Made by a program: the position numbers and the translations under genes. The notes under the pieces are model-generated. The model was given only the letters and a program-made list of their open reading frames with translations. It did no database searches and was not told the origin of the DNA. DNA of 40,572 nucleotides from a bacterium (GTDB taxonomy: Bacteria > Pseudomonadota > Alphaproteobacteria > Rhizobiales > JAKIUO01): the NCBI GenBank assembly GCA_024228495.1, contig JAAETJ010000628.1, positions 1 through 40,572 of the forward strand, written 5' to 3'. Shown piece by piece: positions 149-11,358 of this stretch (positions are counted from its first letter, which is position 1; each line of letters opens with the position of its first letter).

Positions 149-1711
149 GTGATCCCTCTTGGCCCCAGACTTCGCTCGGTTCGCAAGAAAAAAGGCATCA
201 CACAATCAAGCCTCGCGCGCTCAATCGGCATATCGGTGAGCTATTTAAACCTGATTGAGCACAATAAGCGTAATATCAGCCCCGTCCTTATCGCCAAACT
301 GACACGCGCTCTTGATATTGATCCAGAACACTTGTCTGCCCCGCTGGACGCGCGCCTCATCCACGACCTTGAAAATCTTGCAGCCGAGCCTTTGTTTCGC
401 GATTCGCGCCTGGAGCCAAAAGCCCCGAGGGATATTGTTGCCAATCACCCCCGATGGGCGGAAGGTATCCTCAAACTATACCGCACCCACCAAACCTCAA
501 GCGAGGCATTGGAGGCCATGTCTCAGCGCCTCAACCGCGATCCTTATATGGTGGAAAGCTCTCACCAGATCATGAATATCATCACCTCGATCCGTTCTTT
601 TTCCGAAATTCTTGAAGAGGTCCCGGACCTGCCAGATGACGTACGCAACAGCATGGCGACCGGGATTTCTGCTGAAAGTCGCAAGCTCGGCAGCACCGCA
701 AAATCCCTGTTTGAGTTCATCAATGAACCCGACAAATCACTGCGCTCCTCAACCCCCGCCGATCAGGTGAATGATTTTCTGATCGACCGGCACAATAATT
801 TTGAGGAGCTGGAAGAGGCCACCACCAGCCTACGCGCCCGCATCCATAAATCCGGCCACCGCCTAAGCGACGCCCTGTTTGACTATCTGCAAGAAAAACA
901 TGGCACGCAAATCGAGTTTCAGTCGCCACAGGCGCGCGCCATGCCCGGCACCGCCGGTCAATATCATTTTGAAAAGAAAAATCGCACGCTTTATCTCGCC
1001 AACACACTGCCAGAGGCTTCAGCTCGTTTTCAACTGGCGCAACATCTGTTCGAGCTGGAATATGGAGACATCCTAAAGGGCATTCTCGAAAGTGCCGATC
1101 TAACAGGTGATGTCTATCAAGGCGCCCTGCGTGCCCTTTTGAACTACGCGGCCAGCGCCTTCTTGTTTCCCTATGAGCCCTTTTTGGAGGCATGCAAAAA
1201 AACACGCTACGATATTCAGTTGTTGCGGCGCACCTTTGGTGGCAGCTTCGAGCAGGTTTGCCATCGCTTCACCACCCTCAAACGCCCCGACGCCCCCGGA
1301 GTGCCGTTCGCCTTTTTGCGGGTTGATCCAGCTGGCAATATCTCCAAGCGCTACAGCTTGCCCAATTTACCCCTGCCGCGCGGCGATGGCGCCTGCCCTT
1401 TGCTACTCGCCTATCGGGCCTTTTTAACGCCGGGGCAAATCTGCACCCAAATCGGCGCTCTGCCCGAAGGGGAGCAATATCTTTATATCGCCCGCACGGT
1501 TTCCAAACATGTCGGCGCTTACGGCGAACCAGACCGCATGTATGCAATCATGATCGCCTGTGAAGTGCACTATATTGACCAGGTGCTTTATGGAGACCAA
1601 CTGGTGGGGCGCGGCGACCAACACATTACACCTCTTGGCATTCACTGCCGCACCTGTGCACGGCGCTCCTGCCAGCATCGGGCCCATGGTTCCGTATTAG
1701 GCACCTTGTAA
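149..1711 (+). CDS. XRE/ScfR-type transcriptional regulator with embedded histidine-kinase-like (DHp-like) segment
   Basis: The 520-residue protein starts at GTG behind AAGGA. Residues 5-60 form an XRE helix-turn-helix (GITQSSLARSIGISVSYLNL). Residues about 245-345 resemble the degenerate ImmA/IrrE-like region of short-chain fatty-acid regulators. The C-terminal half is of DUF2083 type (GNISKRYSLPNLPLPRG around 396-411) and ends in the Cys cluster HCRTCARRSCQH. Between the DNA-binding domain and the ImmA-like region, residues 137-191 look like a kinase dimerisation helix pair: SHQIMNIITSIRSFSEIL around His139. The histidine kinase downstream has SHELRTPMTSIRSFSEIL at the same register. The Glu and Pro of the canonical H-box are lost, so kinase activity is not expected, but a phosphoacceptor role is possible. 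The regulator at 7598-9013 shares the architecture without this segment. Role in acetate/glyoxylate control is inferred from neighbours. Confidence 0.85.
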   Translation: MIPLGPRLRSVRKKKGITQSSLARSIGISVSYLNLIEHNKRNISPVLIAKLTRALDIDPEHLSAPLDARLIHDLENLAAEPLFRDSRLEPKAPRDIVANHPRWAEGILKLYRTHQTSSEALEAMSQRLNRDPYMVESSHQIMNIITSIRSFSEILEEVPDLPDDVRNSMATGISAESRKLGSTAKSLFEFINEPDKSLRSSTPADQVNDFLIDRHNNFEELEEATTSLRARIHKSGHRLSDALFDYLQEKHGTQIEFQSPQARAMPGTAGQYHFEKKNRTLYLANTLPEASARFQLAQHLFELEYGDILKGILESADLTGDVYQGALRALLNYAASAFLFPYEPFLEACKKTRYDIQLLRRTFGGSFEQVCHRFTTLKRPDAPGVPFAFLRVDPAGNISKRYSLPNLPLPRGDGACPLLLAYRAFLTPGQICTQIGALPEGEQYLYIARTVSKHVGAYGEPDRMYAIMIACEVHYIDQVLYGDQLVGRGDQHITPLGIHCRTCARRSCQHRAHGSVLGTL

Positions 1712-1795
1712 GGAATGTTTTTTGCGCACTCCACAATTCATGCTAAATTAAACACCAATTTGATTGAACCGACTACCTGTTGGGAATGGGAACCT

Positions 1796-2179
1796 ATGCA
1801 CAAGACCGTACTAATCGCAGAAGACGAGCCCTATATTGTGCAATCGCTCAGTTTTCTGCTGGAAAAGGAAGGGCTGGACGTAGAGGTCGCAGTGGATGGT
1901 CGCCAAACCCTAGACATGCTCCGCAAGAACCCTCCCGATATTTTACTGCTCGACCTGATGATGGAGCATCTGACCGGTTTTGAGGTCCTCAAAATCCTGC
2001 GCTCCGAGGAGGAACTGAAAGATATCAAGGTACTGGTGCTATCAGCCAAGGGGCAAGAAAATGATCGGCGCCGAGTCATGGAACTTGGTGCTGACAAATT
2101 CATCACCAAGCCCTATGCCAATAATAATGTCGTCGAAAGCGTGCTAGAGCTGCTGCAAAGCATACCGCAAACGCAATAA
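1796..2179 (+). CDS. Single-domain response regulator (receiver only)
   Basis: The 127-residue protein starts MHKTVLIAEDEPYI. It has the acidic pair (E9/D10), the phosphoacceptor in DILLLDLMM, a Ser in VLVLSAKG at the Thr/Ser position, and the conserved Lys in FITKPY. It ends right after the receiver fold, with no DNA-binding or enzymatic output domain. An upstream in-frame start at 1715 exists, but the extra 27 residues are not receiver-like. It lies between the XRE/ScfR regulator and the symporter-kinase, so it is the likely phosphate shuttle of this sensory unit. Lack of an output domain means the signal must go to another protein; the H-box-bearing XRE regulator next door is the obvious candidate (inference). 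Confidence 0.9.
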   Translation: MHKTVLIAEDEPYIVQSLSFLLEKEGLDVEVAVDGRQTLDMLRKNPPDILLLDLMMEHLTGFEVLKILRSEEELKDIKVLVLSAKGQENDRRRVMELGADKFITKPYANNNVVESVLELLQSIPQTQ

Positions 2180-2197
2180 AGGGAGTCTGTCGTTCGC

Positions 2198-2449
2198 ATG
2201 GATAAAGGTCGCATCAAAGATCTTACCACCCTGATGCCGTGGGTGGGGTTGTTCTTGTTTACACCGCCCGTGCTGTTTTTGTTTCGCCAGGACACAACGA
2301 TTTTTGGCGTCCCCGTCCTTCCCGTTTATCTTTTTGTCACGTGGTTCGCACTAATCCTGACCTCAAGAAAACTGTCCGAGTATCTTGTTGACGATACGGT
2401 CCCCTTCGACACGCCACACATGCCACCTAACTCTTCTGATGAGGCCTAA
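2198..2449 (+). CDS. Small two-helix membrane protein, symporter accessory-like
   Basis: The 83-residue protein has two hydrophobic segments, about residues 9-27 (LMPWVGLFLFTPPVLFLF) and 34-56 (GVPVLPVYLFVTWFALILTS), and a short polar C-terminus. GGGAGT lies upstream of the ATG. It ends three bases before the start of the symporter-kinase, so the two are almost certainly co-translated. Small two-helix proteins (DUF3311, DUF485 or DUF4212 types) commonly accompany sodium/solute symporters. I cannot say which family it belongs to. A role as small subunit of the sensor's transport domain is inferred from position and topology. Confidence 0.8.
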   Translation: MDKGRIKDLTTLMPWVGLFLFTPPVLFLFRQDTTIFGVPVLPVYLFVTWFALILTSRKLSEYLVDDTVPFDTPHMPPNSSDEA

Positions 2450-2452
2450 GCG

Positions 2453-5167
2453 ATGCTCAATTCAGGATTGGTACTCATCACCTCAGCTGGATATCTGGCT
2501 CTCTTGTTTTTACTGGCATTTTTTGTTAATCGACTTGCTGTCAATAACAAATCAAGGATGATCAACTCACCCTTGATCTATACATTATCCCTCACCGTCT
2601 ATTGCACCTCCTGGACATTCTATGGCGCTGTTGGGTCAGCGGCGCGCAACGGGCTTGAATTCCTGACCATCTATATCGGCCCCTCACTGGTGTTCTTTGG
2701 CTGGTGGTTTATTTTGCGCAAGCTGGTACGCATCAGCAAATCTCACCACATCACCTCAATTGCCGATTTCATTTCCTCTCGCTATGGCAAGAGCGCCTAC
2801 CTGGCTGCCCTCGTCACCATCATGGCAGTGATCGGCACCACCCCCTATATCGCCTTGCAGCTAAAAGCTGTTGCCACCAGTTTCAATGTCATCACCGAAG
2901 TGCCAGGTCTGCCGATTGCAGCATCCAGCATCACTCACAGTTTTTATTCTGATACGGGTTTTTGGGTGGCAGCCTCGATGGGTATTTTTCTTGTCTTGTT
3001 TGGCACCAGAACGGTTGGCGTTGAAGAACATCACCACGGGGTCGTGGCGGCCATCGCCATTGAGTCACTAGTCAAGCTGTTCGCCTTTTTGGCGGTGGGG
3101 CTTTTCGTCATGTTCAGCGTGCGCGCGCCTGGTGGCGGTAATATTCTCTCGGCTATCGCACTTGATCCGGCCCTATCGCAACGCTTTTCGTTTCCCGATC
3201 AGTTTGGGCCGCGCTGGCTGACCATGTTAATTCTGTCAGCCTCAGCGATCATTTGCCTGCCGCGCCAGTTTCAAATCACCGTTGTGGAAATTGCCAACGA
3301 GCGCAATCTGCAAAAGGCATCCTGGCTATTCCCCTTATATCTTTTGCTAATCTCCTTGTTTGTCATTCCCATTGCGGTGGCCGGCTTGACCATTTTACCC
3401 GCTGGCTCAAACCCGGATCAGTTTTTGCTCACAGTCCCCCTGGCACTTGGCTATGAGGAGCTATCCTTGCTAGCTTTTATTGGTGGCTTCTCATCGGCAA
3501 CTTCCATGATGATGGTCGCCAGCATGGCCTTGTCGATCATGATTTCCAATCATCTTGTCATGCCGCTCTTGCTGCGTCTTCGCCACACAGAACTGGAGCG
3601 GGGCGCGGATTTCACCGGCATCTTGCTGACAATCCGGCGCATCAGTATCGTGGCGATCCTCATACTGGGCTATATGTATTATCGCTTCAGCACGGGATCA
3701 GACGCACTGGCCTCGATTGGCCTCATTGCTTTTGCGGCCTCTGCCCAGTTTTTGCCCGTTATCATCGGTGGCATTTTTTGGAAAAATGGCACGGAGTTTG
3801 GCGCATTTACCGGCCTCAGCGCTGGCTTTATCGTCTGGGCCTTTACGCTACTTGTGCCGGTGTTTGAACATGCTGGCTTGGTCAACGGCCTACTCGAAAA
3901 TGGTCTTTATGGCATCGCTTTCTTGCGCCCTGAAGCTTTATTTGGGGCGACCGGCTGGGACCCTCTGGTGCATTCGGTGTTTTGGAGCTATTGCGCCAAT
4001 ATCGGCATATATATATTCACCTCCCTGATCTCGAAACCTGGCGCGCTGGAAAGACTACAAGGCTCCTTGTTTGTCGATGTGTTCAAAATCCCTTTCAACC
4101 CTAACGTTCATCTTTCTGGTCGTTCGGTGCGCTCTGGCGAACTGGTGGCCCTTAGCCAGCGCATCCTTGGCACAGGCCCGACGCAAAAACTGTTTCATGA
4201 ATATTCCGAAAAACAGGGCGTTAGCGGCTTACCTGAACCAGATGCTTCGCTCGTTGCTGCCGTTGAGCGTCAAATGGCGGGCAGCATTGGTGCAGCTTCC
4301 GCGCGCATCATGGTATCACGTGTTGTTGAGGGCGAAGACATTGGCATTGATGAAATGATCGAGATTCTGGACGAAACGCAACAGCTCATAGCTTATTCGC
4401 ACCAGCTGGAGCAAAAATCACAACAGCTGGAAGAAACCACCGCGCGCCTGCGCGCCGCAAATGATCAGCTCAAACGCATGGACCGGCACAAGGATGACTT
4501 TTTGAGCCATGTCTCTCATGAGCTGCGCACCCCCATGACTTCGATCCGCAGTTTTTCGGAAATCCTACTCGACACTGACAATCTGGATGGACAAAAACAT
4601 GAACAATTTTTGAAAATTATCGTCTCTGAAAGCCAACGTCTGACGCGCCTGCTAGACGAAATCCTTGATATCAATCTGCTCGAAAATGATTATGGCCCAT
4701 GGGAAGCCAAATCCATCCAACCCTCGACGATCCTGCGAGAAGCGATTGCCTCTCTTGATGGTCTGGTGCAGCAAAAAAATGTCATGCTGAGCGACCGTTC
4801 AACCGTCAACGACTGGTCAACTCATGCCGACCCTGACCGCCTGAAGCAGGTCTATATCAACATTCTATCCAATGCCATCAAGTTCAGCGATCAAAAGCAG
4901 CCGCGCGTCTCAATCGACACCAAGGTCACCGATGGCAGCTTCAGCACCATTATCTCCGACAATGGTCCCGGTATCGCACCCGACGACCAAAGTGCCATCT
5001 TCGCTAAATATCAGCGCATACAACCAAGCGCACAGGGTATTGGCTTAGGGCTGGCTATTTCCAAACAGATCATTACCCGCATGAAAGGCTCGATTGACGT
5101 CAGCTCCAAGCAGGGGCAAGGCGCGGTGTTTACGGTGACAATCCCCAATATTCAAGCAACGAAATAG
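2453..5167 (+). CDS. Sodium/solute symporter-histidine kinase fusion (CbrA/CrbS-like sensor)
   Basis: The 904-residue protein has about 560 N-terminal residues of SSS-family symporter with a dozen or more membrane helices. A linker and coiled-coil follow (around 645-680, LEQKSQQLEETTARLRAAND), then a histidine kinase core. Visible motifs are the H-box SHELRTP with His689, the N-box NAIKFS near 807, the G1 box DNGPGI near 836 and the G2 box GIGLGLAIS near 862. The architecture matches CbrA/CrbS/MxtR sensors, which govern histidine or acetate use in gammaproteobacteria. No receiver is fused; the receiver-only protein two genes upstream is the likely partner. Location next to the glyoxylate-shunt genes favours acetate or another short-chain acid as the signal. 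Whether it also transports is unknown. Confidence 0.9.
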   Translation: MLNSGLVLITSAGYLALLFLLAFFVNRLAVNNKSRMINSPLIYTLSLTVYCTSWTFYGAVGSAARNGLEFLTIYIGPSLVFFGWWFILRKLVRISKSHHITSIADFISSRYGKSAYLAALVTIMAVIGTTPYIALQLKAVATSFNVITEVPGLPIAASSITHSFYSDTGFWVAASMGIFLVLFGTRTVGVEEHHHGVVAAIAIESLVKLFAFLAVGLFVMFSVRAPGGGNILSAIALDPALSQRFSFPDQFGPRWLTMLILSASAIICLPRQFQITVVEIANERNLQKASWLFPLYLLLISLFVIPIAVAGLTILPAGSNPDQFLLTVPLALGYEELSLLAFIGGFSSATSMMMVASMALSIMISNHLVMPLLLRLRHTELERGADFTGILLTIRRISIVAILILGYMYYRFSTGSDALASIGLIAFAASAQFLPVIIGGIFWKNGTEFGAFTGLSAGFIVWAFTLLVPVFEHAGLVNGLLENGLYGIAFLRPEALFGATGWDPLVHSVFWSYCANIGIYIFTSLISKPGALERLQGSLFVDVFKIPFNPNVHLSGRSVRSGELVALSQRILGTGPTQKLFHEYSEKQGVSGLPEPDASLVAAVERQMAGSIGAASARIMVSRVVEGEDIGIDEMIEILDETQQLIAYSHQLEQKSQQLEETTARLRAANDQLKRMDRHKDDFLSHVSHELRTPMTSIRSFSEILLDTDNLDGQKHEQFLKIIVSESQRLTRLLDEILDINLLENDYGPWEAKSIQPSTILREAIASLDGLVQQKNVMLSDRSTVNDWSTHADPDRLKQVYINILSNAIKFSDQKQPRVSIDTKVTDGSFSTIISDNGPGIAPDDQSAIFAKYQRIQPSAQGIGLGLAISKQIITRMKGSIDVSSKQGQGAVFTVTIPNIQATK

Positions 5168-5374: not shown

Positions 5375-7561
5375 TCAAGCTCGCTGCTTCGCCTTTATTC
5401 TCATGGCATGCAAAATGGGTTCGGTGTAACCGCTGGGCTGTTGCGACCCCTCGAAAACCAGATCGCAGGCGGCTTTAAAAGCAAGGCTACCACCAAGATC
5501 ATCGCCTCCATTCTTTTGAGTTACAAGCGCTCGATATGTCGGATCTCCTGCATTTTGTTCATCAACCACGCTCGCCATACGCTGCATGCTTTCCATGATC
5601 TGCTCGCGCGTACAAATGCCATGATGCAGCCAGTTGGCCATATGCTGCGAGGAAATCCGCAACGTGGCACGATCCTCCATCAAACCGACATTATGAATGT
5701 CCGGCACTTTCGAACAACCAATACCAGCATCTATCCAGCGCGACACATAGCCAAGAATACCTTGCGCATTATTATCGAGCTCAAGCCTGATTTCTTGCGC
5801 ACTCCATGAAGGATCTACAGCAACAGGAATTTCTAATAATTGCTCAAGCGTCGCGCGCTCCAGTCCAGCCAACAGCTCTTGCCGCTCACTGACCAGTACC
5901 TGGTGATAATGCAAGGCATGCAAAACGGCGGCGGTTGGTGATGGCACCCAGGCAGTGTTGGCACCAGCTTTGGGATGAATGAGTTTTTGCTCCAGCATGT
6001 CTGACATCAAATCCGGCATGGCCCACATACCCTTGCCGATCTGTGCGTGACCAGGCAGACCACAAGCTAGTCCTACATCAACATTCCAGTCCTCATAAGC
6101 TGCAATCCAGGGAACGGTTTTCATATCGCCCTTGCGCACCATCGGCCCCGCTTCCATCGAAGTATGGATCTCGTCGCCGGTGCGATCCAGAAAGCCGGTA
6201 TTAATGAAAAACAGCCGCTCGCTAGCAGCCCTGATACATTCTTTGAGGTTCAGCGTCGTGCGCCGCTCTTCATCCATAATACCTATTTTGATGGTATTGG
6301 CATCGAGCTCGAGCAATTGCTCAATGCGCGAAAACAACTCTACAGCAAAAGCCACCTCACGGGAGCCGTGCATTTTTGGCTTAACGATATAGATTGATCC
6401 CGCGCGACTATTTCGCAGCCCCCCTGGCCTGTCCAGATCATGCAGCGCCATGAGGCTTGTAAAGATACCATCAAGGATACCTTCAAATACCGGATTGCCA
6501 TGTTCATCGCGCAAAATATCGATGGTCATCAGGTGTCCGACATTGCGCACCATCATCAAGGCACGCCTGCGCAACGTGAAGCGCCCTCCATCACAAGTTC
6601 GATAAACACGGTCATCGTTAAGTGTTCTGGTAATAATCTGGCTTTTCTTTTCGAGCGTTTGCGACAGATCGCCCTTCATGAGACCAAGCCAGTTGCGATA
6701 GACCTCGATCTTGTCTTGCGTATCCACCACAGCTACACTGTCCTCGCAATCCAAAATGGTTGAGAGCGCCGCCTCGATGACCAGATCCGCGATACCGGCA
6801 CGGTCCTGCTTGCCAATCAATGAATTCCGATTAATGCGAATTTCCACATGCAAACCATGGTTGCGCAGCAAAATAGCTCGAAGATTTTTGGAACCTCCTC
6901 GATAACCCGCTAACTGCTTCTTTTCAGCAAGATGGGTAACTTGCCCCCCAGACAATACGACCACCAGTGCACCATCGACGATCTGTAACGACACAGCATC
7001 TGCATAAGACCCCGATGCGAGAGGAAAAGAGCGATCCAAAAAGCGCCGCGCGAAGGCGATCACTTTTTCACCGCGCTCGGGAACATAGTTGCCAGAGGGA
7101 CCTTGCTCATCTTGAGGAATGGCATCGGTGCCATAGAGCGCATCGTACAGACTACCCCATCTGGCATTGACAGCATTCAGAGCATATCTGGCATTGCTCA
7201 CCGGCACGACGAGTTGCGGGCCAGCAATGTCGCTGATCTCCAAATCTATATTTTTTGTCGTGACGGTAAAATCTTCTCCCTCTGGTTCAAGATAGCCGAT
7301 CTCTTCCAGAAAGCTGCGATAAGCGTTGGCGTCAATGGCTTGGCCTTTGTGCGAGAGATGCCAGGCGTCGATTTTTGCCTGGAAGACCTCACGTTGCACC
7401 AGCAATGCCTGATTGACCGGCGTCAGGTCATTGACGATCTGCGCTACGCCTTGCCAAAATTCCTGCTCATCGATCTCCAACCCCGGCAAAGCCTCATTAC
7501 TGATGAACGCCGCAAATTCTGGATCAATCGTAAGACCTTCAACGGTCAATTCTCGTGGCAT
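5375..7561 (-). CDS. glcB: Malate synthase G
   Basis: The 728-residue product matches the usual length of MSG (about 720-730). It condenses glyoxylate and acetyl-CoA to malate, the second step of the glyoxylate shunt. Recognisable stretches include [19 protein letters not shown], the metal/glyoxylate region [37 protein letters not shown] split across residues around 430-480, and the C-terminal catalytic region [16 protein letters not shown]. The start ATG follows a G-rich SD (GGGGG). It lies 36 bases downstream of the second ScfR-type regulator on the same strand, so the two are probably one transcript. Isocitrate lyase lies about 2.2 kb away on the other strand. Confidence 0.97.
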
Positions 7562-7597
7562 ATCATACCCCCTTGTTATTATTTTTATGGTGTACGA

Positions 7598-9013
7598 CTA
7601 CGCCGAGATATAGGCGGACGCACCACGTTTATTGGCATCAAGATTGAGCTTATGGTGAGCGGGCGGAAAAGCGCGCTCCGAACATTCAAGCCGCGGACAG
7701 ACCCGGCATGAGATGCCAATAGGCACGACATTGCGCTCATCATCAAGGCGAATACCGTCCGAATAAACCAGCTGCTTGGCACAATCTATATCGACGCCAA
7801 GCCCAATCGATAGATGGCGCATCTGCGCGCCATAACGATTTTCACCTTTGACAATGGTACGGGCGATACAAAAGAACCGCTTGCGGTCGGGCATCTCGGA
7901 AATCTGCACATTTATATTGCCAGGGTGCAAAAACGCCATATAGACATTCCAGCGCGGGCAGGCACCAGAATGACGCGGGATATGGATACCGGACAATGAA
8001 AAGCGCTTGGAAATATTTCCCGCAATATCTGAACGCACCATATGAAACGGCAAACCTTTGGCCCCCGGTTTTTGCAAGCTGGTGAGGCGATGACAAATCT
8101 GCTCGAAGCTGACGAAAAACTGCTGCGACAACAAATCGACATCATATCGCACGCCCTTTGCCGCCGATAGAATCTGCTGATAAGGCATCAAGATCGCCCC
8201 AGCACAATAATTGGCGAGCGCTGTTTTGGCTAGAATTTGTGCATCCTTGCTAGGAAAATTACCCTCGCTGACAAGCGTATCAATCTCATATTTACCAGCC
8301 ATCAAAGCGGTTTGCACGGCCACTTGAAAGGACCTGCTCTGCGTCGAAAGATTTTGTGCAATCTCCAACTTGCGGCTAGAAGGATCAAAACGCCGTGCCA
8401 ACCGATTTGGCAGGCCGACAAATCTGGTATGAACGTCAAAGGCATTGAGCAAAAACGTCACCAGCCCCTGCATGCGTTCTTCATCTGATTGAACGCATTC
8501 CGAGCGCACCCTTGTGGCAACCTGCTCAAGACTTGGAAAGAAATTGGAATTGGCCTGTAAAAAATCCGAGACCGGCTCACTGGCCAAACCGCGTTGCTCG
8601 CCCTCTTCCTTAGTCGTATTCTCACTGCTCACGCCATTTTTTTTGAACCGCTGAAAACTGTCATATAAATGCAACAGAGCCTTGGCGATAGCCGGGTTGG
8701 AGCTCACCACGTCGCGCACATCCATATTGGTGACATCGATATCGGCGAAAATATCGTCGCCAAAACACTCCATCAAATCATTGGTGACACTTGCCTCATC
8801 GCCCTCGGACAGATCTGTAATTTCGAGCCCAAAATATCCTGCCAGCTTTAGTAAAAGCGGTACCGTAACATTGCGCCGATTATGCTCAATCAGATTGAGA
8901 TAGCTAGGAGAAATACCAAGGGCCGAGGCCAGGTCAGATTGGTTCATGCTGCGCTGTCGACGCAAGCGTTTGATCTTGCCGCCAATGCGGGGTTGGGCCG
9001 TACCATTCGCCAT
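7598..9013 (-). CDS. XRE/ScfR-family regulator of glyoxylate shunt (RamB/PrpR-like)
   Basis: The 471-residue protein starts at ATG after GAGGAGAAGAG. Residues 10-65 are an XRE helix-turn-helix (MNQSDLASALGISPSYLNLIEHN). The central region is ImmA/IrrE-like without an intact HExxH. The C-terminal DUF2083-type domain has GNISKRFSLSGIHIPRHSG, and the family Cys cluster CRVCPRLEC comes near the end. RamB of Corynebacterium and PrpR of Mycobacterium have this architecture and control acetate or propionate genes. Placement as first gene of an operon with glcB, and facing isocitrate lyase, fits a local regulator of the shunt. It is a paralogue of the protein at 149-1711 but lacks its H-box-like segment, having instead an acidic polar linker there. 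Confidence 0.92.
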   Translation of the reverse strand: MANGTAQPRIGGKIKRLRRQRSMNQSDLASALGISPSYLNLIEHNRRNVTVPLLLKLAGYFGLEITDLSEGDEASVTNDLMECFGDDIFADIDVTNMDVRDVVSSNPAIAKALLHLYDSFQRFKKNGVSSENTTKEEGEQRGLASEPVSDFLQANSNFFPSLEQVATRVRSECVQSDEERMQGLVTFLLNAFDVHTRFVGLPNRLARRFDPSSRKLEIAQNLSTQSRSFQVAVQTALMAGKYEIDTLVSEGNFPSKDAQILAKTALANYCAGAILMPYQQILSAAKGVRYDVDLLSQQFFVSFEQICHRLTSLQKPGAKGLPFHMVRSDIAGNISKRFSLSGIHIPRHSGACPRWNVYMAFLHPGNINVQISEMPDRKRFFCIARTIVKGENRYGAQMRHLSIGLGVDIDCAKQLVYSDGIRLDDERNVVPIGISCRVCPRLECSERAFPPAHHKLNLDANKRGASAYISA

Positions 9014-9080
9014 CTCTTCTCCTCAAAGCACATGGGTGACTAAATCAGCGTCAATCCCAGACAGTCAAAAATTTTCAACG

Positions 9081-9178
9081 TTTACAAAAATCACCCGCAA
9101 CACTGTAAATCCTTTACATCTTTACAAGTTCAACAGCTGAATTATCTTGCGCCTTGCAGGGAATGTCAATATTTTACA
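9081..9178. promoter_or_regulatory. Putative ScfR operator cluster and divergent promoter region
   Basis: TTTACA or TGTAAA words occur at 9081-9086, 9104-9109, 9113-9118, 9121-9126 and 9173-9178. TGTAAA-TCC-TTTACA (9104-9118) is a perfect inverted repeat. The stretch is AT-rich and lies between the start of the minus-strand regulator and the plus-strand small gene at 9287. The same words sit upstream of the first ScfR-type regulator. Function as a binding site is inferred. Confidence 0.5.
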
Positions 9179-9286
9179 GACATGATGTTAATTCAGGCAA
9201 CTAGCTGTGCGAGTGACAGTTATGATCGCAAAAGCTGAGAAGCAATTGAGATTATGTCAAGGCAAGTCAATTAAAGGAATGACAAG

Positions 9287-9544
9287 ATGACACTTCAGGA
9301 AACCATGATTCCGCAAACCTCTACCTTGCAAAACGAGTGCATTACTATTATCGCCCGCAGTCCCGGACAGGCTCTTAAAGAATTTCACCGTCGCGGACTT
9401 GGCAAGCAGGGATACGCGATTAGTGGCCGTGTGGTGCCTCACAAGTTTGAAGTGATCGATGATGAGGGTTCTTCTGAAGAGCTCTTCAATGGTGAGCATT
9501 TTTATTCAGCAACGTTTTTTCGTAAAGAAGAACAGCGCCGCTGA
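9287..9544 (+). CDS. Small conserved-looking protein of unknown function upstream of isocitrate lyase
   Basis: The 85-residue protein begins with ATG after AAAGGAATGACAAG, a good SD. It is soluble, with a central segment ITIIARSPGQALKEFHRRGLGKQGYAISGRVVPHKFEV and a basic C-terminus. No catalytic or metal-binding motif is evident. Its alternating strand/helix/strand pattern suggests a compact alpha/beta fold. It sits alone between the ScfR operator region and isocitrate lyase and could be co-regulated with the shunt. I do not recognise the family. Confidence 0.7.
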   Translation: MTLQETMIPQTSTLQNECITIIARSPGQALKEFHRRGLGKQGYAISGRVVPHKFEVIDDEGSSEELFNGEHFYSATFFRKEEQRR

Positions 9545-9609
9545 ACTTACTCAGATTTCCCCCCGAGTGGCTTTGCGGCATCCAAATCGCGAAATCACTC
9601 CTCTCCCTT

Positions 9610-9670
9610 CCTTCCAACTGAACCTCTCATCAACAACTCTTGCTAGTTTTTGATGGAAGGTTTCTTTTTT
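9610..9670 (+). terminator. Possible terminator after the small protein
   Basis: CCTTCCA (9610-9616) can pair with TGGAAGG (9654-9660), followed by TTTCTTTTTT (9661-9670). The loop of about 37 bases is long, so this is weak, but the stem-plus-T-run arrangement is right for the plus strand. Confidence 0.3.
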
Positions 9671-9762
9671 GTCGTTTGGTTTGGTTTGGAACCGCACAGC
9701 CATCGACATTGTAAAGAAACAAAAATCTCATGAAGCCACTCAATTTATCCAAAGAAAAAAAC

Positions 9763-11358
9763 ATGTCACAATATCAAGACGACATTAAAAACACATCGGC
9801 TCTGAAAGAGGCACAAGGTAAATCCTGGGACGCCATCAGCTCTGAATCTGTGGCCCGTATGAGAGCACAGAACAGATTCAAAACGGGACTGGACATTGCC
9901 CAATATACCGCTGACATCATGCGCACTGATATGGAGCGCTATGACACCGATAGCACCAATTACACCCAATCTCTTGGCTGCTGGCATGGCTTTATCGGCC
10001 AACAAAAAATGATCTCCATCAAGAAGCATTTTGGTGGTCAGACGAATGGCCGTTATCTGTACCTGTCTGGCTGGATGGTAGCGGCTCTGCGCTCAGAGTT
10101 TGGCCCCCTGCCCGATCAGTCCATGCACGAAAAAACATCTGTCGCTGCCTTGATAGCCGAGCTATATACTTTCCTTCGCCAGGCCGATGCCCGCGAACTG
10201 GGTGGTTTGTTCCGCGAGCTGGATGCAGCCAAGAGCGCTGGCGACACTGCCAAACAACAAGCCACACAAGAAGCGATAGATGGACATGTCACCCATGTGG
10301 TGCCGATCATCGCCGATATTGACGCAGGCTTTGGCAACGCCGAAGCCACTTATCTGATGGCCAAGCAAATGATTGAAGCTGGAGCCTGTTGTATCCAGAT
10401 CGAGAATCAGGTCTCGGACGAAAAACAATGCGGCCATCAAGACGGCAAGGTCACCGTCCCGCATGTCGACTTCATCGCCAAGCTGCGCGCCGTTCGATAT
10501 GCCTTTCTCGAACTGGGGATTGATAACGGGATTATTGTCGCACGGACCGATTCGCTTGGCGCGGGCCTTACCAAGCAAATCGCCGTCACCAGCAAACCTG
10601 GAGACCTTGGTGATCAGTATAACGCCTTTCTTGATTGTGACGAGGTATCACCAGAAAGTATAAGCAACGGTGATGTGGTGCTCAAGCAGAACGGCAAGCT
10701 GGTCCGTCCCAAACGACTTCCCAGCAATCTGTTTCAGTTCCAGCAAGGCACAGGCGAAGCACGTTGCGTGCTTGATTGCATCACCTCCTTGCAAAATGGT
10801 GCGGATCTTTTGTGGATCGAAACGGAAAAACCCCATATCGAACAAATCGGCAGCATGGTCAATGCGATCCGAGAGGTTATTCCAAATGCCAAGCTGGTCT
10901 ACAATAACAGCCCGTCGTTCAATTGGACCCTTAATTTCCGCCAGCAAATGTTTGATGCGATGAGTGAAGCTGGTGAAGATATGTCCGCCTATACCCGCGA
11001 CGATCTTATGGATGCCAAATATGATGACACTGATTTGGGCAATCGAGCCGACGATAAAATCCGCACCTTCCAGGCAGATGCTGCACGTGAAGCAGGGATT
11101 TTTCATCACCTCATCACGCTACCGACCTATCACACAGCAGCGCTTTCGACAGACAATCTGTCAAAGGATTATTTTGGCGATCAGGGCATGCTTGGATATG
11201 TGCTTGGTGTGCAGCGCGTGGAGATCCGCGAAGGCATCGCCTGCGTCAAACATCAAAACATGTCAGGCTCCGACATCGGTGATGATCACAAGGAAGCTTT
11301 TTCTGGTGATGCAGCGTTAAAAGCTGGCGGCAAAGACAACACCATGAACCAGTTCTAG
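9763..11358 (+). CDS. aceA: Isocitrate lyase (long, Pseudomonas-type)
   Basis: Cleaves isocitrate to glyoxylate and succinate, the first step of the shunt. The catalytic motif region reads SDEKQCGHQDGKV (Cys in KQCGH). QSLGCWHGFIGQQKMISIKKHFGG and IVARTDSLGAGL are also typical of the family. I take the ATG at 9763 (MSQYQDDIKN, 531 residues) rather than the in-frame one at 9730. The shorter form begins like the 531-residue Pseudomonas enzymes, and AAAGAAAA precedes it. The compact AceA of most alphaproteobacteria and E. coli is about 430 residues, so this is the longer subfamily. A TTGTAAAG word lies at 9709-9716 and a strong terminator follows. Confidence 0.96.
   Translation: MSQYQDDIKNTSALKEAQGKSWDAISSESVARMRAQNRFKTGLDIAQYTADIMRTDMERYDTDSTNYTQSLGCWHGFIGQQKMISIKKHFGGQTNGRYLYLSGWMVAALRSEFGPLPDQSMHEKTSVAALIAELYTFLRQADARELGGLFRELDAAKSAGDTAKQQATQEAIDGHVTHVVPIIADIDAGFGNAEATYLMAKQMIEAGACCIQIENQVSDEKQCGHQDGKVTVPHVDFIAKLRAVRYAFLELGIDNGIIVARTDSLGAGLTKQIAVTSKPGDLGDQYNAFLDCDEVSPESISNGDVVLKQNGKLVRPKRLPSNLFQFQQGTGEARCVLDCITSLQNGADLLWIETEKPHIEQIGSMVNAIREVIPNAKLVYNNSPSFNWTLNFRQQMFDAMSEAGEDMSAYTRDDLMDAKYDDTDLGNRADDKIRTFQADAAREAGIFHHLITLPTYHTAALSTDNLSKDYFGDQGMLGYVLGVQRVEIREGIACVKHQNMSGSDIGDDHKEAFSGDAALKAGGKDNTMNQF

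Follow-up and report, generated by a model that had tools for sequence, protein, structure and literature searches.

How can a membrane-bound kinase reach DNA when the response regulator encoded next to it has no output domain? This question is raised by one end of a 40,572-nucleotide stretch of alphaproteobacterial DNA (the window), where genes for an XRE/ScfR regulator, a stand-alone receiver, a small hydrophobic protein and a histidine kinase of probable symporter type follow one another on the forward strand. The regulator gene (149..1711, 520 aa, GTG start) encodes an HTH DNA-binding domain at residues 8-61 (170..331; Pfam HTH_3, E=7e-13, 48.8 bits against a cut-off of 23 bits) followed by M78/IrrE-like (PF06114, residues 250-374) and ScfRs acyl-CoA regulator (PF09856, residues 376-515; 153.2 bits against a cut-off of 24 bits) domains, which together span 896..1693. 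The N-terminal HTH and C-terminal ScfRs domains place the protein in the ScfR family, and from this membership it is predicted to bind short-chain acyl-CoA, for which binding data exist on RamB (PMC10370305). Its match to a RamB-like NCBIfam model was under the cut-off. The end of the ScfR domain carries a cysteine cluster, CRTCARRSC (1646-1672), which we take to be a possible metal or Fe-S site like that of PrpR.

The receiver gene (1715..2179, likely start 1796, phospho-Asp codon 1952-1954) matches only Response_reg in Pfam, and its relatives have a median length of 126 residues, which agrees with the initial annotation of a response regulator without an output domain and differs from CrbS/CrbR, where the receiver is fused to its own DNA-binding output. 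All 110 of 110 relatives keep the Asp, Asp and Lys of the active site. The next gene (2198..2449) encodes a small hydrophobic protein of 83 aa without a Pfam or NCBIfam match, a conserved partner of the symporter-kinase with relatives in most operons; it may be the counterpart of cbrX, the small ORF that precedes cbrA in Pseudomonas putida. The kinase (2453..5167, 904 aa) has HisKA and HATPase_c domains, with the dimerisation/phosphotransfer (DHp) domain at residues 680-744 (4490..4684; HisKA E=6e-17) and His689 encoded at 4517-4519. A Pfam search of its N-terminal part, with E-values of up to 0.1 admitted, matched no symporter family, and its symporter nature is suggested by family resemblance and by the sodium:solute symporter annotation of the Paracoccus counterpart.

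Between its HTH and M78 domains, the window regulator contains an insert of about 60 residues (helical part 542..724), at a site where ordinary ScfR proteins are about 57 residues shorter. Residues 138-155 of this protein (SHQIMNIITSIRSFSEIL) had been reported to resemble the H-box of the kinase (residues 688-705, SHELRTPMTSIRSFSEIL), including its phosphoacceptor His. The resemblance was upheld: 12 of 18 positions are identical in what is the best ungapped 18-residue match, with His139 (codon 563..565) in register, whereas 300 shuffles of the XRE sequence gave 6-10 identities and the second ScfR of the window gave 7. BLASTP extended the similarity to 17/43 identities without gaps (E=1e-05). 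Against the Pfam HisKA profile (cut-off 26.9 bits), the window insert scored weakly and below the cut-off (13.4 bits; E=0.084 with the whole protein, 0.019 with the fragment), whereas three of its relatives (L139, L143 and L135) exceeded it with 38.7, 33.0 and 33.7 bits and have the full-length domain order HTH-HisKA-M78-ScfRs. Insert fragments from 24 diverse members matched HisKA in 19 cases (best E-value 6e-11) and matched no other Pfam family more than once. Since relatives surpass the HisKA cut-off, the insert can be regarded as a captured DHp domain. Among the kinases of the window genome, the insert profile found the neighbouring symporter-kinase best (4e-16, the next 4e-10).

Structure prediction gave a less specific result. 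An AF2 model of XRE residues 100-240, built from five alignment rows, contains two helices (132-157 and 163-192) with pLDDT mostly 70-90, and the same helices appear in a longer model of the XRE protein fused to the receiver. Foldseek placed HK853 and other DHp domains on top and DivL lower, with weak E-values (0.05 and above), and VIA-align superimposed model residues 31-100 on HK853 251-321 so that model residue 40 (His139) meets HK853 His260. VIA-align scored unrelated helical hairpins as high as DHp domains; because such hairpins resemble many unrelated folds, the predicted two-helix fold is compatible with a DHp domain but is not diagnostic by itself. The fused model (stop codon read through, 13 rows) was discarded as a source on receiver docking, its receiver part having an uninformative pLDDT of mostly 35-65.

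The insert is not a peculiarity of one genome. We examined the genomic regions of 108 distinct insert-bearing ScfR proteins, all from Alphaproteobacteria; none was seen outside this class in a sample of phyla, where the matches looked kinase-like by length and coverage. A tree of 28 inserts and 28 kinase DHp domains, based on 55 columns only and with many inner forks unresolved, has one branch parting the two groups with support of 99/94. The inserts share 0.307 identity with the DHp domain of their own kinase and 0.293 with those of other kinases, and the window kinase ranks 51 of 92. The separation of inserts and kinase domains by a supported branch speaks against recent gene conversion from the kinase, which these identities likewise do not support and which was rejected as the source of the similarity. 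On sequence evidence, the insert is homologous to DHp domains and of one origin; the probable source of this single capture is a HisKA kinase that resembled the symporter-kinases most closely.

The gene order recurs as well. In 80/108 cases a same-strand receiver gene lies 3' of the XRE gene at a distance of less than 1 kb, and the recurrent operon runs XRE, receiver, small membrane protein and symporter-kinase, the last two usually being present. In Paracoccus ferrooxidans the annotated order is XRE, response regulator, hypothetical protein and sodium:solute symporter, and the clustering of a Paracoccus ScfR homologue with two-component genes is mentioned in one sentence of PMC10370305. Some genomes have the XRE gene without an adjacent receiver or kinase; regions L149-L154 contain a symporter-kinase and a receiver without an insert-bearing XRE there. 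Partial correlations with receiver distances, taken as bare coefficients, were weak: 0.21 for the insert, little more than the 0.13 obtained with the remainder of the XRE protein.

A divergent ABC operon adjoins the XRE gene in 91/109 regions and encodes a substrate-binding protein, two permeases and two ATPases of the urea or branched-chain amino acid type, the type matches being below curated cut-offs. The window starts too near the XRE gene to include this operon, which is present in the near relatives L077 and L078. An acetyl-CoA synthetase, named from reading its sequence, is found in 25/109 regions. Downstream, beside the XRE operon, the window contains a glyoxylate-shunt cluster (5375-11358) with malate synthase G, an insert-free, RamB-like second ScfR and isocitrate lyase.

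What the insert has kept and lost relative to kinases is informative about its role. At +1 from the His, Glu is present in only 24/108 inserts, and Pro at +5 in 0/92 inserts paired with their own kinase; the window protein has Gln140 and Ile144 at these positions, and the Pfam search found no HATPase_c or other ATPase domain in it. It therefore lacks what marks a histidine kinase, namely an ATPase domain together with an acidic residue (Glu/Asp) at +1 and Pro at +5, as the initial annotation had noted. His139 itself is found in 89/108 relatives (replaced by Phe in 13, Gln in 4, Leu in 1 and Tyr in 1), and when mapped on a tree built from the protein outside the insert, its column shows 5 residue changes, compared to a median of 28 across insert columns. 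At +4 (Asn143 in the window, codon 575..577), the position of the HisKA phosphatase residue, Thr, Ser or Asn occurs in 105/108 inserts. Identity between XRE and kinase sequences is 0.21 in the input helix, 0.87 at the His, 0.19 at +1 to +6 and 0.59 in alpha1C, followed by 0.22 in the loop, 0.41 in alpha2N and 0.10 in alpha2C. In DivL and HK853, alpha1C and alpha2N form the receiver-docking module (PMC4211667). By this measure, the most kinase-like parts of the insert are the putative receiver-binding segments, and the parts that would serve an ATPase domain have diverged.

This pattern fits a kinase-dead, receiver-docking domain. We give a probability of about 60% to the reading that the insert is such a DHp domain, docking the stand-alone receiver and thereby joining the signal of the symporter-kinase to DNA binding by the ScfR protein. 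Weighing against it are the genomes in which the XRE gene has no receiver or kinase beside it, the small difference between the two partial correlations and the limited diagnostic value of the hairpin fold. Judged from the sequences, the operon is conserved, the docking surface retained and the kinase residues lost; docking at the insert, a signal running from kinase to regulator and control of the ABC operon are proposed from these features. In the suggested mechanism, the symporter-kinase would set the phosphorylation of the receiver, which would bind the insert and alter DNA binding by the ScfR protein. The change would act at the divergent promoter of the urea/branched-chain-type ABC operon, whether or not acetyl-CoA synthetase accompanies it, and the C-terminal ScfR domain would contribute acyl-CoA sensing. 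If the insert is the docking site, symporter-kinase signalling and acyl-CoA sensing would therefore converge on one DNA-binding protein.

The link proposed earlier between kinase, receiver and XRE protein agrees with the DHp-like insert and the widely conserved receiver-only regulator, but its phosphorelay version, in which phosphate would pass from the symporter-kinase through the receiver to His139 and switch DNA binding, is a form of docking that we hold only tentatively. The retention of His139 among the most conserved insert columns, despite the loss of autokinase residues, favours chemistry at this residue, and a single-domain receiver conserved next to the XRE gene would suit a relay. 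However, the presence or absence of His changes 4 times on the tree and four lineages have lost the residue, with the operon intact in two of them (L083 and L087), and the window insert has no acidic residue at +1. These losses suggest that His139 is dispensable at least in the lineages concerned, which would serve as natural tests of docking versus phosphotransfer. Because His is mostly kept and yet was lost in four lineages, we place docking first and treat three mechanisms as its sub-models: phosphotransfer, phosphatase action, and pure docking of the kind seen in DivL. Should the relay operate, it would end on a His inside a DNA-binding, acyl-CoA-sensing ScfR protein, conserved across Alphaproteobacteria, and external substrate sensing and the internal acyl-CoA level would meet on one promoter.

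His139 and an adjacent receiver gene occur together in 78 cases, His without the linked receiver in 11, a linked receiver without His in 2 and neither in 17 (Fisher p=1e-10). After phylogenetic pairing, p was 1 with too few independent pairs, and the association of His loss with receiver loss was therefore dropped. One genus (L142, L144-L146, L187-L192, L194, L195 and L203) has Phe instead of His and has lost the Arg at +10; its receiver and kinase genes, where seen, lie about 7.5 kb away in the opposite orientation.

Rather less probable is another variant of docking, in which the kinase-dead HisKA remnant would act as a phosphatase for the receiver, draining the signal and reporting to the regulator. 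In HisKA proteins, Thr or Asn at +4 has a phosphatase role, and in CrdS N375 (+4) is required for phosphatase activity only, whereas E372 (+1) is required for kinase activity and the E372Q variant is still competent in dephosphorylation (PMC3510030), which suits inserts with T/S/N at +4 and a mostly replaced Glu. In contrast, the residue at +4 is Ser in 46/108 inserts, a replacement for which we saw no test in that study, and the Pro at +5 is lost, while CrdS P376A lowered phosphatase activity (PMC3510030). Docking and phosphatase action would be equally compatible with the docking surface and with T/S/N being kept at +4.

DHp domains dimerise, and the insert might have kept this function with receiver contact gone, as conservation peaks at likely core positions, among them 154, 169 and 180; we consider this improbable, since dimers would not need the conserved His139, R149 and S150, the docking segments or a fixed receiver gene. 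Least credible is a mixed dimer of insert and kinase DHp domain, with His139 phosphorylated in trans or the kinase inhibited, because alpha2C has diverged and the own kinase matches hardly better than others, despite hydrophobic positions common to both helices of the two domains.

Receiver docking, the reading we prefer, would make this a split two-component system: the kinase-derived receptor for the receiver would sit on the output protein instead of the response regulator. Docking would offer a possible answer to how stand-alone receivers of symporter-kinases act, and many Alphaproteobacteria may in this way couple substrate sensing to acetate-type metabolism through an insert-bearing ScfR. 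A literature search of open papers brought up no ScfR or XRE regulator described as carrying a DHp domain, in line with the initial annotation. The arrangement of these proteins suggests that the membrane sensor signals to a DNA-binding protein by a route undescribed in the open papers searched.

The window protein shares the HTH, M78-like and ScfRs domains and the acetate/propionate context with RamB, PccR and MccR/PrpR, but ordinary ScfRs, including the second one of the window, have no DHp insert, and use of a receiver by these characterised members is unreported in the literature examined. Its degenerate DHp resembles that of Caulobacter DivL, which reads the response regulator DivK with its phosphoacceptor His replaced; DivL, however, is a PAS- and CA-containing pseudokinase that acts on CckA and does not bind DNA. 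ChpT-type histidine phosphotransferases are likewise dimeric, histidine kinase-like and active in phosphoryl transfer (PMC3433190), but stand alone without a DNA-binding domain. A histidine kinase of putative symporter type is shared with CrbS/CrbR, CbrA/CbrB and RpuS/RpuR (SSS/STAC), and the link to acetyl-CoA synthetase and acetate with CrbS/R. In those systems the regulator carries its own DNA-binding output of the LuxR or sigma54 type, whereas in the window the receiver stands alone and its likely output is the ScfR protein with the DHp insert.
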